A stretch of 64,000 nt of DNA. It comes from Natronohydrobacter sp. Lineage in GTDB: Bacteria; Pseudomonadota; Alphaproteobacteria; Rhodobacterales; Rhodobacteraceae. A model generated the notes under the pieces. It searched no databases, was not told the DNA's origin, and saw nothing but the letters and a program-made list of their open reading frames with translations. The translations under genes and the position numbers were made by a program. This document shows, one piece after another, positions 2,880-56,217 of this stretch. The stretch lies in contig JAFIEL010000002.1 of assembly GCA_020832585.1 (NCBI GenBank), forward strand, positions 26,568-90,567. The letters run 5' to 3'. Every line of letters begins with the position of its first letter. Position 1 is the first letter of the stretch.

Positions 2880-3647
2880 TCACTCAGGATAGGCGCCTGC
2901 AACATTCTGATCAAAATCGACCAGAGCGCCTGTCATCACGCCAGAGTCGGCACTTAGCATATAGCTTGCCAGACCCGCTACATGCGTAGGTTTGACGAGC
3001 GTACCAAAAGGTTGCGCAGCCTCTGCGCGCGCAAGCCAGTCGTCACCCGCCCCATGATACCTGCGCTGGGTTGCGTCTTCGCCCGGCGTATCCATCCAGC
3101 CGCAATTGATGCCATTCACGCGGATATGCTGACTGCGCAAAGCTTGCGCGGCATTGCGCGTCACATTGGCCAGCGCGGCCTTCGAGGCCGAATAGGGCGC
3201 AAGGAAGGACTGCCCGCAATGCACCACCATCGACAGGATATTGACAACACTGGCACCGTGCCCCGCGGCGATCGCGCGCTGCGCGACACGCTGCAAGACG
3301 AAAAAGGGCGTTCTGGCATTTGCGGTCATCATCCGGTCCCACAGTTCGGGCGTTGTGTCGAGCACAGAGCCACGATCCGTCAACGCGCCTGCCACGACAA
3401 GGGCATCAATTCGGCCCAGATGGTCGGCTGCCTGATCGACAGCCGCGACAGTTGCCGCCGTGTCACACAGATCGGTCACGGCAAAACGCGCGCCAAGCTC
3501 TGCCGCAATGGACGTGCCTTTCGCACTGTCGCGCCCCGTGATCACCAGCTTTGTGCAGCCTTGCGCGACAAGCTTTCGCGCAATGGCAAGCCCCAAGCCC
3601 TGCGTGCCGCCAAGGATAAGCGCATGTGTCTGGCTGTGCTGCATCAT
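2880..3647 (-). CDS. short-chain dehydrogenase/reductase in inositol operon
   Basis: Classical SDR of about 255 residues. It has a GGTQGLGLAIA nucleotide-binding glycine motif near residue 10, and the catalytic Ser and YSASKAALA (Y-x-x-x-K) follow. The start at 3647 gives an ATGA overlap with the stop of the upstream ABC ATPase, implying translational coupling; a second ATG sits immediately after it. SDRs in inositol clusters commonly interconvert inositol isomers and inososes or oxidise modified cyclitols, and the position between transporter and iolG supports such a role. The substrate is not determinable from sequence. Confidence 0.85.
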   Translation of the reverse strand: MMQHSQTHALILGGTQGLGLAIARKLVAQGCTKLVITGRDSAKGTSIAAELGARFAVTDLCDTAATVAAVDQAADHLGRIDALVVAGALTDRGSVLDTTPELWDRMMTANARTPFFVLQRVAQRAIAAGHGASVVNILSMVVHCGQSFLAPYSASKAALANVTRNAAQALRSQHIRVNGINCGWMDTPGEDATQRRYHGAGDDWLARAEAAQPFGTLVKPTHVAGLASYMLSADSGVMTGALVDFDQNVAGAYPE

Positions 3648-4433: not shown

Positions 4434-5519
4434 TTACATCCGATGGGCCGCGCGGCGCTGGCGCCACTGGTCCAGGACAACCGCGCCAACGATAATCGCG
4501 CCCTTGGCCATTTCCTGGTAATAGGCATCCAGCCGCAGGAACGTGAAACCAGAAATGATCACACCGAAGATCAACGCCCCAAGACAAGTGCCGATGATGG
4601 AGCCGCGCCCGCCCTGCAAGGAAATGCCGCCGATCACCGCCATTGCGATGGCATCGAGTTCATACATCACGCCCATCCCGGCCTGTGCAGTCAGGTTCTT
4701 GGAACTCAAGACGATGGCGGCAATTGCTGCCAACCCCCCGGCAATGGTGTAGACCAGCGTCAGATGGCGCTGCACATTGATCCCCGACATGCGCGCGGCA
4801 TCCATGTTCGAGCCGATGGCATAGGTGTGCTTGCCATAAACCGTATGACGCATGATCAGGTAAAACAGCACAGCCAGACCGATGAAGATATAGACCGGCA
4901 TCATGCCTGCACCGATGGCAGCATAGCTTTCCGTCGGGAACGACACGGGTTGGCCCTTGGTCCACCATTTTGCCACGCCGCGCGCAGCCACCATCATGCC
5001 CAAAGTCGCGATAAAGGGCGGGATGCGCGTATAGGCGATCAGAAGTCCATTGATCAAACCCGCCAGCAACCCGCAACCAAGACCCACCAGGACCGGCACG
5101 ATGATTGGCAGATCCAGCCAACCCTGCTCGAAGAAAACCGCGCGTGTGTGGGGGTTTCCATTGACTTCTGCCACTTGCGCAAAACTCATGGCGATCATTG
5201 CCGTGGCCCCGACGATAGAGCCGGAGGACAGATCGATCCCGCCTGTGATGATCACCTGCGTCACACCAAGTGCAATGATGCCGATGATCGCCACCTGCAG
5301 GATGATGATCTGCAGACGCGCTTCATTGAAGATCGAGTTGAAGCGGCCCTGCGTGTCGAACAGGAAGCTTTGGCCGTTCATATAGGGCATTGTCTGCCCC
5401 AGTAGCTCGAAGACGCCGACAATCAGGACAAGCGCCAGAAACACGTTCAGTTCCGGCGGTCGGTAGCGCTTTCTGTGGTCGTATTTCAGACCACCAATTC
5501 CCACTGTTGCCTCTGCCAT
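4434..5519 (-). CDS. sugar ABC transporter permease (RbsC/FrcC type)
   Basis: Inner-membrane permease of about 361 residues with many hydrophobic segments. It carries the family motif GGIDLSSGSIVG in the first third and a conserved ELDAIAMAVIGG block near the C-terminus, typical of BPD_transp_2 proteins. The start at ATG 5519 follows GGGAG. It is transcribed after the periplasmic binding-protein gene, from which it is separated by a strong hairpin, and just before the ATPase. It likely forms the pore for inositol-like sugar import. Confidence 0.9.
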   Translation of the reverse strand: MAEATVGIGGLKYDHRKRYRPPELNVFLALVLIVGVFELLGQTMPYMNGQSFLFDTQGRFNSIFNEARLQIIILQVAIIGIIALGVTQVIITGGIDLSSGSIVGATAMIAMSFAQVAEVNGNPHTRAVFFEQGWLDLPIIVPVLVGLGCGLLAGLINGLLIAYTRIPPFIATLGMMVAARGVAKWWTKGQPVSFPTESYAAIGAGMMPVYIFIGLAVLFYLIMRHTVYGKHTYAIGSNMDAARMSGINVQRHLTLVYTIAGGLAAIAAIVLSSKNLTAQAGMGVMYELDAIAMAVIGGISLQGGRGSIIGTCLGALIFGVIISGFTFLRLDAYYQEMAKGAIIVGAVVLDQWRQRRAAHRM

Positions 5520-8611: not shown

Positions 8612-8637
8612 CATGATGACGTAATTACGTCATCATG
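8612..8637. promoter_or_regulatory. 26-bp perfect palindromic operator upstream of lacI-1
   Basis: A perfect 26-bp palindrome with core ATGATGACGTAATTACGT continues symmetrically to its end. It lies 13 bases upstream of the lacI-1 ATG, between it and the PanB-like gene. The core recurs with one centre change at 7558-7575, supporting a LacI operator and autoregulation. Confidence 0.75.
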
Positions 8638-8663: not shown

Positions 8664-9467
8664 TCAGGTGGTGGCAAGCTCGCCCAGAAACCGCTCATAC
8701 TCGCAATCGGCAATCGGTACGGCGTGTTCCGGTCCGGGATACGTCCCGCGCTCCACATCCTGGCGAAAAGCCTCGAAAGCGCTGATCCGTTTTTGCTGCA
8801 ACCGCTCATACTCCGTCGCGAAATCGGCATATGTCCTGGCGTGACGGGGCTTGTGACCGCGCGTACACCCCAGCACGTCCTCCGCAAACAGATATTGCGC
8901 ATCCGCGCCGGACCCGGCCCCCATACCAAGCATGACAAGCGATGTGCGCCGAGAAATCTCTGCGGCCACCCGGTCCGGCACCACTTCGAGTTCGGCCCCG
9001 AATGCGCCGACGGCTTCAAGCGCCCGCACATGGCGCCAGACCGCGAGGGCCGACTCTGCTGTCTTGCCCACGGCCTTGAACCCACCGGTCCAGGTTGCTT
9101 TCGAGGGGATGAGCCCCACATGGCCGACCACAGGTATGCCATCATCGGCCAGCGCCTTGATCGTGCCGAGCGCTGACGCACAATAAACGCAATCGCCGCC
9201 AGCCTGCATCGCTGCATGTGCTGCGCGCTGATAGTCTTCCATCGTGACCAACTGGCCGTAGAGAAGACCGACCTGCACGAAGCAATCACCCGCTGCATCG
9301 CGCATCTCGGGCGTCCAGAGCGGGCCAATGATCGACAACATGTCGATCCCCGCCTCTGCTGCTGCCGCAGCTTCTTCGACGCTCTCGACATACAGCATCG
9401 TCAGTTGGCGCTTTCCTTTCAGCGCGCGAATATCTGCCACCGTAGGCCGTGTAGATCTGAGGCTCAT
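8664..9467 (-). CDS. PanB-like (ketopantoate hydroxymethyltransferase family) protein, metal ligands altered
   Basis: A 267-residue protein with clear PanB similarity in its second half: GIPVVGHVGLIPS, GGFKAVGKT, GAELEVVP and MGAGSGADAQYLF. Compared with E. coli PanB, the Mg-binding Asp45 (GDS motif) aligns to IGP, Asp84 aligns to a non-acidic residue in VQVGLL, and Glu114 (IEGG) aligns to CASA. The catalytic Glu181 is kept in ELEVVP. It therefore may not make ketopantoate. It sits between lacI-1 and mocE-like genes in a cyclitol cluster, not with panC. Methyl- or hydroxymethyl-group handling after O-demethylation is a possible but unproven role. ATG 9467 follows AAGGAC. Confidence 0.75.
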   Translation of the reverse strand: MSLRSTRPTVADIRALKGKRQLTMLYVESVEEAAAAAEAGIDMLSIIGPLWTPEMRDAAGDCFVQVGLLYGQLVTMEDYQRAAHAAMQAGGDCVYCASALGTIKALADDGIPVVGHVGLIPSKATWTGGFKAVGKTAESALAVWRHVRALEAVGAFGAELEVVPDRVAAEISRRTSLVMLGMGAGSGADAQYLFAEDVLGCTRGHKPRHARTYADFATEYERLQQKRISAFEAFRQDVERGTYPGPEHAVPIADCEYERFLGELATT

Positions 9468-52382: not shown

Positions 52383-52398
52383 GTCCACCGCGGTGGAC
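52383..52398. promoter_or_regulatory. 16-bp palindrome just after repC, candidate parS
   Basis: GTCCACCGCGGTGGAC is a perfect palindrome one base beyond the repC stop codon. An identical copy lies within repC at 52832-52847. Repeated perfect palindromes inside a repABC operon are the usual form of the RepB-bound centromere. Confidence 0.6.
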
Positions 52399-52399
52399 G

Positions 52400-53455
52400 T
52401 CACGCTGAGACTGCGTCGGATCGTACAAGCCTCTCCAATACAAGTTTCGGGTTGAACTCTGACGCCCTGCGCCCAAGGGTCAAACTGTGGAAATATGCGC
52501 CAAAGTTTCTGATCCGGTTGCCGAACTGAAGCATGATGAAGATGGCACAAGACGCTTTTCGAGATCCGACTGTTCTCTGTGCTTCCTCAAAGCTGCTGGC
52601 GTGTATCCCCATCATCGGTGCCAACGTTCGGGCATGGTGTTCGATGTCAGGCCAGCTTCTTAGCGCAGCAGGGGCAAAAGCTGTGGCTTGATCACAGATC
52701 GCAGTCAACTCCTGCGGTTCAGGCGTTTCATGCTGTTCGGGCGTATCCAAATCTATGTGTTCTTTCTCAGACTTAGATTGGTGCCGGACATTTTGACCGT
52801 CATTGGCGGACAGTTTCACCACTTCAACAGGGTCCACCGCGGTGGACAAGTCCCGGCACTCCTCCTCTGCGGCGGCAAGCAGTGACTGATATTCAGTCAC
52901 TGACAGCTTTCGACGCAGCATCTTTCGGATGCTCTTCGGGAATGTGCTTGTGGGCTCAGCCTGTTCAAGCTGGGCAAGCTTCACCAGAATCTGCTTGCGC
53001 AAAAACGCTCCGTCCCGGCGCATATTCCCGACTTCCTGCGCAGCCGCGAGAACCTCCTCGGCGCGTTCCAGAAAAGACGCGATTGACAAGCCAAAGCTGA
53101 TGCAGTGTCCATCGGAAGATCTTACCCTGTATCTTTTACCATTGGGGCTGTCGTGCCGCTTCACGAAACCAAGATCAACAAACCGATCTATGTGTCTGCG
53201 AAGTGTCCGCTCATCGATGCCACCTATGCGACGGCAAATCTCGGCATTGGACGCGAATATGGTTTCGCCTTGTCCGGGCCTGAGAAAGCTCAACAGCGCT
53301 TGCAGGGTCTGGATGTGGCCAGAGCGCAGCCCATATGCGCATCGCGCGTCCCTGAGTGCCCGGAAAATCACCCAGATATCGGTTTGTGGCAAGCGCGAGT
53401 TGCCGCCACCCAGGTCAGCACTGGCGCGGTCGATTGAAAGCTTTGTGAATGTCAT
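52400..53455 (-). CDS. repC: replication initiator RepC
   Basis: A 351-residue RepC-type initiator. The N-terminal part contains winged-helix segments (TIFASNAEICRRIGGIDERTLRRHIDRFVDLGFVKR), a middle coiled region (FLERAEEVLAAAQEVGNMRR), and the C-terminal domain includes FGNRIRNFGAYFHSLTLGR. RepC drives replication of repABC plasmids, with the origin usually inside its own gene. The gene is separated from repB by 244 bp that contains an antisense RNA. The ATG at 53455 has only a weak ribosome-binding site, fitting antisense control. An identical palindrome to the one after the stop is embedded at about codons 203-208. Confidence 0.93.
   Translation of the reverse strand: MTFTKLSIDRASADLGGGNSRLPQTDIWVIFRALRDARCAYGLRSGHIQTLQALLSFLRPGQGETIFASNAEICRRIGGIDERTLRRHIDRFVDLGFVKRHDSPNGKRYRVRSSDGHCISFGLSIASFLERAEEVLAAAQEVGNMRRDGAFLRKQILVKLAQLEQAEPTSTFPKSIRKMLRRKLSVTEYQSLLAAAEEECRDLSTAVDPVEVVKLSANDGQNVRHQSKSEKEHIDLDTPEQHETPEPQELTAICDQATAFAPAALRSWPDIEHHARTLAPMMGIHASSFEEAQRTVGSRKASCAIFIMLQFGNRIRNFGAYFHSLTLGRRASEFNPKLVLERLVRSDAVSA
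52832..52847. promoter_or_regulatory. 16-bp palindrome inside repC, candidate parS
   Basis: This is a second exact copy of GTCCACCGCGGTGGAC, 449 bases from the first and encoded within repC codons for STAVDP. Conservation of a perfect palindrome inside coding sequence suggests selection on the DNA. Confidence 0.6.
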
Positions 53456-53537
53456 GGTTTCTGAACGATGACCGTTTCAGCCCATGATCTCCCGGCCCTT
53501 TCACGCGATTCACGCAATGAAAAGGCAATAAAATACC

Positions 53538-53555
53538 GTCCACCGAATCGGTGAC
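53538..53555. repeat. imperfect dyad upstream of the antisense RNA promoter
   Basis: CACCGA-A-TCGGTG with partial GTC/GAC extensions lies between repC and the antisense RNA promoter. It shares the GTCCACCG half with the two perfect palindromes, so it may be a weak related site or part of the repC leader structure. Confidence 0.35.
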
Positions 53556-53557
53556 TC

Positions 53558-53645
53558 TTGACCGTTGCTCAGGAGATTGCTACATCATAGGTGCTAATCA
53601 GATGACGAGAGCTCTCCAGGGGAAACCTTGGGGGGCTTTTCTTTT
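53558..53645 (+). ncRNA. counter-transcribed antisense RNA (ctRNA/incA) in the repB-repC gap
   Basis: On the plus strand, opposite to the rep genes, a -35 TTGACC (53558-53563) is 17 bases from a -10 TACATC (53581-53586). Transcription would start near 53593. It would end at a hairpin GCTCTCCAGGG-GAAA-CCTTGGGGGGC (53611-53636, with G-U pairs and a GNRA loop) followed by TTTTCTTTT. The RNA would be about 50-55 nt, as known for repABC ctRNAs, which repress repC translation and set copy number and incompatibility. Confidence 0.75.
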
Positions 53646-53699
53646 GGTCCTCGTTTCTCTCCTCTGCTCGTGTTTCTTGATATGGCCTTGGTTATGTCC

Positions 53700-54659
53700 T
53701 CAGCCGCTCTCATTCCGCCACTGCTCGAACAGGTGCTGTAACGCGGTTTCCGCGTGTTGTTCGAGCCACTGGCTGAATTCAGGGTTGTCCTTGCGCATGA
53801 TCTTGATGGCGACTGCCTTGCTGTCCACCGCAAGCTTGGCGAGGGGCGCACCATTCATATCACTGATCATGGTTGTCAAAACATCAGGGTTGCGGTTTGT
53901 CGCGGCGCGTGTCCGGGTTGTGCACGCCGTCTGGACCGCATGGAAACGATCTGCGCTCGATGAGGTGTCTGGCAGGTCTGCAAGGGCCTCTCTCGCGATC
54001 TCGACCAGAGGCAGTTTTTCCGAAAAGGCCGCCAGATCCGCCCATTGCCGTCGTCCGATCCCATGCGCCGGACCGATAAGCCGGACAAGTTCCTCAGGCA
54101 ATTGCTCGATGATCACACGGTGGTTCGATACGCCTTGGCGCGTCAGGCCCAAAGCGTCCTGAATCACTGCGGGCTTGTATCCTGCCGCCTGCATTTCCCT
54201 GATGAAAAGCGCTTTCTCGATGAAAGACGGGTCCAGACGCAGGTTGTTTTCCTGACCCTGTGCAATCAGAGATGCATCATCGTCCAGTGTACGGACGATC
54301 GCCTTGACCGTACCCCCGAGCTTTCGGATCGCTGCAAGCCTGCGGCGGCCATAGACGATACGGTACCGATCCGGCTGGTCCGAAGGGCGCACCATGATCG
54401 GGACATGTTGCCCATGCGCGCGGATGCTCTCGGAAAGTTCGTCAATGCTGCTGTCCTCCAGCACAAGACGATCCCGCAGGCCATCCATGTCGATCCGATC
54501 CGGATCGATGTCACGAATGGAATTGGCCGTGATTTCACGAAGCGACTCTCTCAATCCGCCAACAGAGCCCGCCAGCTTGGACGCGCGCAGCGGGGCAGGG
54601 GAGGGGGCCGAGGTTGTTTCCTCGTCTTTCGGAGGTTGGTTGAAGATGTTGCGCCCCAT
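53700..54659 (-). CDS. repB: partition protein RepB (ParB family)
   Basis: A 319-residue ParB-like DNA-binding protein. It contains a ParB/Srx NTPase-type region with DRYRIVYGRRRLAAIRKLGGTVKAIVR and a following helix-turn-helix (ALFIREMQAAGYKPAVIQDALGLTRQGVSNH). The start overlaps the repA stop by one base (TGATG). It binds the plasmid centromere, probably the GTCCACCGCGGTGGAC palindromes, and with RepA partitions the replicon and represses the operon. Confidence 0.94.
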   Translation of the reverse strand: MGRNIFNQPPKDEETTSAPSPAPLRASKLAGSVGGLRESLREITANSIRDIDPDRIDMDGLRDRLVLEDSSIDELSESIRAHGQHVPIMVRPSDQPDRYRIVYGRRRLAAIRKLGGTVKAIVRTLDDDASLIAQGQENNLRLDPSFIEKALFIREMQAAGYKPAVIQDALGLTRQGVSNHRVIIEQLPEELVRLIGPAHGIGRRQWADLAAFSEKLPLVEIAREALADLPDTSSSADRFHAVQTACTTRTRAATNRNPDVLTTMISDMNGAPLAKLAVDSKAVAIKIMRKDNPEFSQWLEQHAETALQHLFEQWRNESG

Positions 54660-55858
54660 CAGCGACGCCCCCAGGCCAGTTGCAGTGTCTGCTCCAGCTC
54701 ATCGGCCACACTGTTGACGCTGCTCAGCGCCCTGTCGATTGTCTTGCGAATAAGCTGGGCAGGGTCGACCTCGTAAATCGTCTGCTGCGTCATGCCTGCA
54801 TCAGAAATAGCGGTCGATTTCAGCATCGGCTCGGTCATCACCTGCCCCGCGAGAACAGATCTCAGATAGCCTGCCATCTGTGTTTGCGGCCCGTCCGATG
54901 GCTCATAGCGCGTGATCAGGAACTTGACGAAATCCCAGGTAACTTGCCGCCCGATCGCTTCTTCAACCGCCTTGACCGTTTCAGAGGCCAGTTTGAGAAA
55001 CTGGCTCATCGATGCGATGTCCAGCATGCCGGGCACGACTGTCACCAGCAGCCCCGTCGAAGCCGCCAAGGCGGTCAAGGTCAGAAATCCCAGTTGTGGC
55101 GGGCAGTCGATCAAGACAAGATCATAGGCGGAATCGACTTCTTCCAGAGCCAGCGCAAGGCGTTCGGCGAAAATCGGTTGCACGCGGCGCGCAAGCGCAT
55201 TTGCCGTCTCGGTTTCATACTCCGAAAGCATCAGGCCCGCAGGCACCATGTCCAGTTTGTGGAAATAGGTTTTCTGAATGACCTGCGACAAGGGAACCTG
55301 ATTGTCGTATCGCAATGCGTCATAGACAGTGCCACCATCCGCGAATTCCAACTCCGGCCTGAAGCCGAAGAAAGTCGTCAAACTGGCCTGTGGATCAAGA
55401 TCCAGCACAAGAACCCGGTAGCCTCTCAAAGCATATCTCTGGGCCAGATGGATCGTCGCAGTCGTTTTCGATGACCCGCCCTTGAAATTGACGACAGAAA
55501 CGACTTGCAGGCGGTCGCCGTCGCGCCGTCCGGGCCGATAGGTATCCGCGTTTTTTCCTGTGCGCGCCAGGATTTCGCGCAGCCCGTCGATCTCTTCGGC
55601 GGTGTAGAATCTGTGACCGCGCTTGTCTGCAAAAACTTCCGGAAAACTGCCGTCCTTGTGGCGGTTGCGCAGGTTTGACGTGCTTACACGCAGCAATTCT
55701 GCTACTTCGGTCGATGTGAAACGTCGAAGGAATTTGCGCTCTTCTGGCTCGAACGCAATCTTCATCTGCCGGTCAAGCGACTCGGCCAGATTATCTGCAA
55801 ATGCACCGATGTCAGACGAACCTACACCTTGCACATATCCAATGCTTCTATCATCCAT
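54659..55858 (-). CDS. repA: partition ATPase RepA (ParA family)
   Basis: A 399-residue ParA-type ATPase. It has an N-terminal MerR-like helix-turn-helix (FTSTEVAELLRVSTSNLRNRH), the deviant Walker A FKGGSSKTTATIHLAQ, Walker A' VLVLDLDPQASLT and Walker B YDLVLIDCPPQLG. It is the first gene of repABC, moves plasmid copies with RepB and represses its own promoter. Dyads and a DnaA-box-like site lie upstream. Confidence 0.95.
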   Translation of the reverse strand: MDDRSIGYVQGVGSSDIGAFADNLAESLDRQMKIAFEPEERKFLRRFTSTEVAELLRVSTSNLRNRHKDGSFPEVFADKRGHRFYTAEEIDGLREILARTGKNADTYRPGRRDGDRLQVVSVVNFKGGSSKTTATIHLAQRYALRGYRVLVLDLDPQASLTTFFGFRPELEFADGGTVYDALRYDNQVPLSQVIQKTYFHKLDMVPAGLMLSEYETETANALARRVQPIFAERLALALEEVDSAYDLVLIDCPPQLGFLTLTALAASTGLLVTVVPGMLDIASMSQFLKLASETVKAVEEAIGRQVTWDFVKFLITRYEPSDGPQTQMAGYLRSVLAGQVMTEPMLKSTAISDAGMTQQTIYEVDPAQLIRKTIDRALSSVNSVADELEQTLQLAWGRR

Positions 55859-56217
55859 GTCCTGCCGCCTCTGATGGCCTCTGCAAAGGCTCTTTGTAAT
55901 TCTGACGACATAAGGCTATCCTGACGCACTTTGCCGTCAGAATGGAAATGCCATGAAGTTCTCAATTCAGCAAGAAGATTCTATATGTAGTGGAAAAGTT
56001 ATCCACAGCGGCAATTCGCGCCAAGGGCAGAAAGCCCTCTAACTTATTGTAATTTATAGTAAAATATGCAAGCCGAGCACTCATGACGGGTGCGCCTGTC
56101 TTGACGCGGCACCATGGGGTCAGAACTGCCACTCTTCTGACTGCAGCGTGACATAGGTGTTGATTCCGCCTCGCGCCCGAATCCTGCCGGGGGTTCAGTT
56201 GATGCAGTAGTATCCTC
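55859..56217. other. 359-bp intergenic region with DnaA box and AT-rich stretch
   Basis: No gene is supported between repA and the recombinase gene. TTATCCACA at 55999-56007 equals the consensus DnaA box. An AT-rich run (56041-56070) follows. With the repA-upstream dyads this is the upstream control region of the replication operon and may contribute to origin function, although repABC origins normally lie in repC. Confidence 0.5.
55899..55943. promoter_or_regulatory. inverted repeats upstream of repA
   Basis: ATTCTGACG (55899-55907) and CGTCAGAAT (55935-55943) form a perfect 9-bp inverted repeat. A further CTGACG (55921-55926) pairs with the second arm at closer range. They lie 41-85 bases upstream of the repA start, a likely RepA/RepB operator. 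Confidence 0.5.

Follow-up and report, generated by a model that had tools for sequence, protein, structure and literature searches.

The repABC operon in the 64,000-nt stretch of Natronohydrobacter sp. DNA analysed here (the window) raises the question of why a perfect 16-bp palindrome, GTCCACCGCGGTGGAC, occurs twice in it, once inside repC and once at the repC stop codon. According to our analysis, the two palindromes are very probably the parS (centromere-like, inc) sites of a RepABC-5-type replicon. The observations behind this assignment are the sequence and position of the sites, their near-constant number of two in related loci, their association with the RepB lineage, and the conservation of the internal copy at the DNA level.

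The repABC operon and the duplicated palindrome

The operon is a genuine, complete repABC: repA, repB, and repC follow in this order on one strand, and their matches to TIGR03453, TIGR03454, and NF040974 all exceed the curated cut-offs. In PDB, RepB has ParB, Noc, and KorB as sequence relatives. The features of the locus are as follows:

52383..52398, no strand assigned: putative parS copy 1, GTCCACCGCGGTGGAC (exact match), 1 nt past the repC stop
52400..53455, minus strand: repC, replication initiator, 351 aa (NCBIfam NF040974 RepABC_RepC, E=1.6e-70; Pfam RP-C and RP-C_C)
52747..52776, minus strand: start of the AT-richest repC stretch, probable unwinding element (by AT content)
52769..52810, minus strand: conserved DNA element in repC, probable oriV core, TCCGCCAATGACGGTCAAAATGTCCGGCACCAATCTAAGTCT (second independent 16-nt conservation peak)
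52832..52847, no strand assigned: putative parS copy 2, GTCCACCGCGGTGGAC in repC (exact match), codons 204-208
53506..53563, minus strand: S-element-like repC leader (RF00490, 25.9 bits, under the gathering score)
53608..53647, plus strand: candidate antisense ctRNA in the repB-repC gap (RF00489, ctRNA_p42d, 23.1 bits, under the gathering score)
53700..54659, minus strand: repB, ParB-type partition protein, presumed reader of the palindrome (TIGR03454, E=1.6e-78)
54659..55858, minus strand: repA, ParA-type partition ATPase (TIGR03453, E=1.2e-158)

Though sub-gathering in score, the ctRNA_p42d and S-element matches have the expected place and strand, and the candidate ctRNA is accompanied by a terminator-like stem (53607-53640). 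A perfect DnaA-box-like sequence, TTATCCACA, is located at 55999-56007, approximately 140 bp upstream of repA, and GANTC (CcrM) sites are numerous around the operon.

A search of the window found two exact, perfectly palindromic copies of GTCCACCGCGGTGGAC, as the sequence-only reading had proposed. As repC is encoded on the minus strand with its stop codon at 52400-52402, the copy at 52383-52398 begins 1 nt beyond the stop, while the copy at 52832-52847 is read in the repC frame as TCC ACC GCG GTG GAC (STAVD). Approximately 1.3 single 16-bp palindromes per window are expected by chance, so the signal lies in the exact duplication and the conservation, not in palindromy itself; two identical palindromes are surprising, and the shuffled window yielded a mean of 0.5 matches to GTCCACCGCGGTGGAC at three or fewer mismatches. 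The same reading was to be abandoned if the palindrome proved common across the genome, but no copies with up to one mismatch were found beyond these two in the 3.3-Mb draft genome (86.6% complete). Elsewhere in the window, a perfect 26-bp palindrome, CATGATGACGTAATTACGTCATCATG, unrelated to the repABC operon, was found at 8612-8637.

The position of one copy immediately past the repC stop might suggest a transcription terminator or an mRNA processing hairpin at the gene end. However, the second copy is found either within repC or as far as 2.8 kb downstream of it, and a loopless 16-bp palindrome makes a poor hairpin; as, moreover, neither copy is followed by a T-run or listed by the terminator scan, this explanation was rejected as having a negligible probability.

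If the palindromes are parS sites, RepB dimers would bind each of them, the RepA ATPase would move the RepB-parS complexes apart, leaving one plasmid copy in each daughter cell, and the palindrome sequence would set the cognate RepB and hence which plasmids are incompatible, as is typical of the family. In the case of Paracoccus aminophilus plasmid pAMI4, both RepB binding of parS and incompatibility were demonstrated (PMC9040568).

The RepB lineage and the compatibility group

The palindrome is present in 25 of 298 family genomes. It was expected to recur in replicons with a related RepB, and indeed it was found in all 22 genomes whose RepB shares 59% or more identity with that of the window vs 3 of the 276 others (Fisher p ~2e-30, the genomes being related and the draws not independent). 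The three others are G128, whose RepB is 45% identical; G248, in which repC and a copy after it lie at a contig end; and G112, with no rep genes near its GTCCACCGCGGTGGAC. Genomes that have the RepB relative contain 46 perfect copies, 45 of which lie no more than 4 kb from repB; the remaining one, at the far end of the same contig, may reflect a circular junction.

RepBs of 40-47% identity go with other palindromes (GTCATCCGCGGATGAC, GTTGTCCGCGGACAAC, ATTGTCCGCGGACAAT, TGTGCCCGCGGGCACA), each group having its own, and palindromes also differ between replicons residing in one cell. In the same genome, contig C7 bears a second RepABC replicon; its palindrome, GTTGGCCATGGCCAAC, occurs at 8664 and 10000, once perfect and once with one mismatch, after repB and further downstream, and these two sites are probably its own parS pair. 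Co-resident RepABC replicons of G273 and G128 likewise have different palindromes. The sequence of the palindrome is thus RepB group-specific, and co-resident replicons do not share it. In each of the 22 genomes, only one RepB of this group is present, which at these frequencies agrees, if only weakly, with the incompatibility prediction.

RepB and RepC mostly co-evolve here, and therefore the association alone poorly separates them. The main case that does is the RepABC module of G128, which has the same palindrome with a RepB ~45% and a RepC only 33% identical to those of the window. That module (contig C68) contains four copies, at 5163, 6726, 6837, and 7530, one of them within repB. RepB groups differ from one another in the expected region of the helix-turn-helix (HTH) (TRQGVSNHRV in the window vs DKPMLSRMTK in RepABC-10); this difference could be the source of the palindrome specificity, as a lead and not as proof.

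The palindrome was also found in 35 stretches from IMG/VR, in none of which rep genes could be recognised; hence, GTCCACCGCGGTGGAC alone is non-diagnostic outside this group. A 56-kb phage contig (IMGVR_UViG_3300009177_000011) contains five perfect copies as well as near-copies inside genes, most of them translated as STAVD(K), with no RepABC in the parts read; perhaps these represent an iterated palindrome of the phage's host.

Among published plasmids, RepABC-5 plasmid pDSM107133_e (L209; PMC9025767) carries GTCCACCGCGGTGGAC twice, as does L092, taken as pNanh_A236, which was published with RepC-5 (PMC4148953). RepA, RepB, and RepC of pDSM107133_e are 91, 74, and 62% identical to those of the window; in both plasmids, assigned by the Petersen scheme, RepB is 73-74% and RepC ~62% identical, and one copy lies 1 nt past the repC stop, but the second is 110-134 bp downstream and not inside repC as in the window. 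Its presence in a published RepABC-5 plasmid assigns the palindrome to a known compatibility group, and both the Rep protein relationship and the diagnostic palindrome place the window replicon in RepABC-5. This fixes its compatibility signature, which is of the RepABC-5 type.

Labelled plasmids from PMC9025767 showed one palindrome per group. As a method control, RepABC-1 plasmid pDSM107133_f yielded TTAACAG/CTGTTAA, as in PMC5613091, which validates the palindrome-finding approach. The RepC of Marinovum algicola pMaD2 (L186) is annotated as 'RepC-5a'; this plasmid has a different palindrome, GTTGTCCGCGGACAAC, and a RepB ~41% identical, so that group labels in databases are loose and inconsistent.

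The repABC parS consensus is GTTNNNNGCNNNNAAC (PMC9040568). GTCCACCGCGGTGGAC differs from it symmetrically at positions 3 and 14 (C and G) and otherwise agrees, being a perfect palindrome with a GC centre in the expected place; deviations at the consensus ends are seen in other groups as well. Strict searches for the GTT...AAC consensus would miss the parS sites of a widespread plasmid group.

Number, position, and DNA-level conservation of the sites

Among 91 related loci with repC, many of them near-identical, exactly two copies (up to one mismatch) were found in 88: two perfect copies in 83, and one perfect and one single-mismatch copy in five. Of the other three, one has three copies, and two have one copy each, in stretches ending 138 and 222 nt after repC. 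Together with the complete repABC and the association with the RepB lineage, this constancy argues for the probable centromere initially suggested for the palindromes.

A perfect copy lies exactly 1 nt past the repC stop in 84 of the 91 loci. In ~40 loci, the second copy lies within repC, 448 nt ahead of the stop; otherwise it is 40-2800 bp downstream of repC, commonly at +110 or +134 and at most at +2767. Thus, the second copy shifts its place while the total stays two. A further near-copy, GTCCACAGCGGTGAAC, with two mismatches, recurs ~1.3 kb after the repC stop in L003 and many relatives; this near-match (at +1309) was left out of the site counts. L016, with three copies, has a perfect site at 8895 with the same right-hand flank as this near-copy.

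A RepA+RepB tree built for 36 representatives places the window, with its internal copy, near the base and assigns the loss of the internal site to a single clade. One representative, L017, was mis-scored as 'downstream', an artefact of a shifted repC stop; its internal copy is present with one mismatch, and therefore the state changes on the tree are two, not three. Within the loss clade, L052 and L206 have an internal site with two mismatches plus a downstream copy, which looks like site replacement in progress.

The claim that the internal copy constrains repC codons was borne out. In 13 non-redundant repC genes, selected for having the internal copy, the longest invariant DNA run is exactly the 16-bp palindrome, the next longest being 8, and all four fourfold codons in the palindrome are invariant vs 3 of 57 other conserved fourfold codons. 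As these genes had been chosen for having the copy, the test was redone on 14 divergent repC genes picked according to their place in the tree, with no perfect copy required (two have a mismatch); the internal copy ranked first of 1023 16-nt windows (98.2% vs a mean of 73%, sd 10).

These comparisons bear on the possibility that the duplication arose by chance or that STAVD is conserved at the RepC protein level. A single 16-bp palindrome is indeed about what is expected per window, but the invariance of the fourfold codons and of precisely 16 bp, and the top rank even where a perfect copy was not required, are at odds with both variants. Moreover, RepCs without the palindrome read STPDD, HTPDD, or YTPDN; STAVD thus disappears together with the palindrome, and the conservation does not concern the amino acids. 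The fourfold-codon, window-rank, and STAVD comparisons led us to reject protein conservation, and chance or protein conservation together are left with a minimal probability. The internal copy is thus preserved as DNA.

The replication origin and comparison with known systems

The element at 52769-52810 contains the highest synonymous-conservation windows in both lineages, and in both it is separated from the internal palindrome by 21 bp. Within it, an imperfect dyad, TGACGGTCA-AAA-TGTCCGGCA, occupies 52782-52802, and the element runs into the AT-richest part of repC (codons 221-240, 56-65% AT across relatives, the repC maximum). Published work locates the repABC origin within repC, in an AT-rich region or close to one (PMC3155836), and the pTiR10 RepC binds an imperfect dyad adjoining an AT-rich stretch (PMC6090056). 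Therefore, the conserved dyad element with the AT-rich tract is likely the oriV.

The internal copy could itself be part of a RepC-bound origin, the downstream copy being a second RepC site, given that RepABC origins are inside repC, that the pTiR10 RepC acts on such a dyad by an AT-rich stretch (PMC6090056, PMC3155836), and that 21 bp separate the internal copy from a conserved element resembling the pTiR10 RepC-bound region. However, a whole clade (16 tree representatives) lost the internal palindrome while its element, AT tract, and repC remained intact; the origin can therefore do without the palindrome. RepCs 33-36% identical to that of the window are paired with at least four different palindromes, whereas in G128 the same palindrome goes with a RepC as distant, and what relatives preserve is two sites, not the internal place. 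The loss clade and the RepC/palindrome mismatches mostly rejected this explanation, and we consider it very improbable compared with parS sites read by RepB.

For parS sites, it is conceivable, though rather unlikely, that the internal one couples partition to replication initiation: RepB loaded 21 bp from the origin element would spread over oriV or pair with it, limiting re-initiation. In that event, the near-invariant two would reflect a need for a RepB-loaded pair around the 3' half of repC, maintained even as the internal site decays and a downstream site appears. Nature offers an experiment here, as the same two-site centromere has its second site either in repC beside the origin or outside, with decayed intermediates in L052 and L206; this makes the effect of a parS beside oriV, on copy number or only on segregation, testable.

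parS sites at the repC end are standard. The compatibility group of the palindrome had likewise been defined before; what seems unusual, as well as well conserved, is its location in repC. No description of parS inside repC was found in the accessible literature, which excludes the group description by Petersen et al. (2009), and a literal text search did not find the exact 16-mer, shorter forms matching primers and unrelated sequence. Plasmid pDSM14862_f (RepABC-7) has its own palindrome, GTTTCCGGCCGGAAAC, at 1880-1895 and 3043-3058, once in repB and once in repC. It represents a second RepABC group with a putative parS within repC, so that this arrangement is not unique.

Several known systems share parts of this organisation. 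The parS of pAMI4 is likewise a group-specific 16-bp palindrome with a GC centre near repABC (PMC9040568); its sequence is different (GTTGACAGCTGTCAAC), with one copy in the repB-repC gap and three others 11.5 kb downstream, and none described in repC. On Vibrio cholerae chromosome 2, parS2 by ori2 is a ParB site beside an origin, and ParB2 is known to influence replication control (PMC6090056); however, ori2 is an unrelated iteron origin. Finally, the repD parS of pTiR10 (PMC6090056) is also within operon coding sequence, but in repD, between repA and repB, and not next to the origin in repC.
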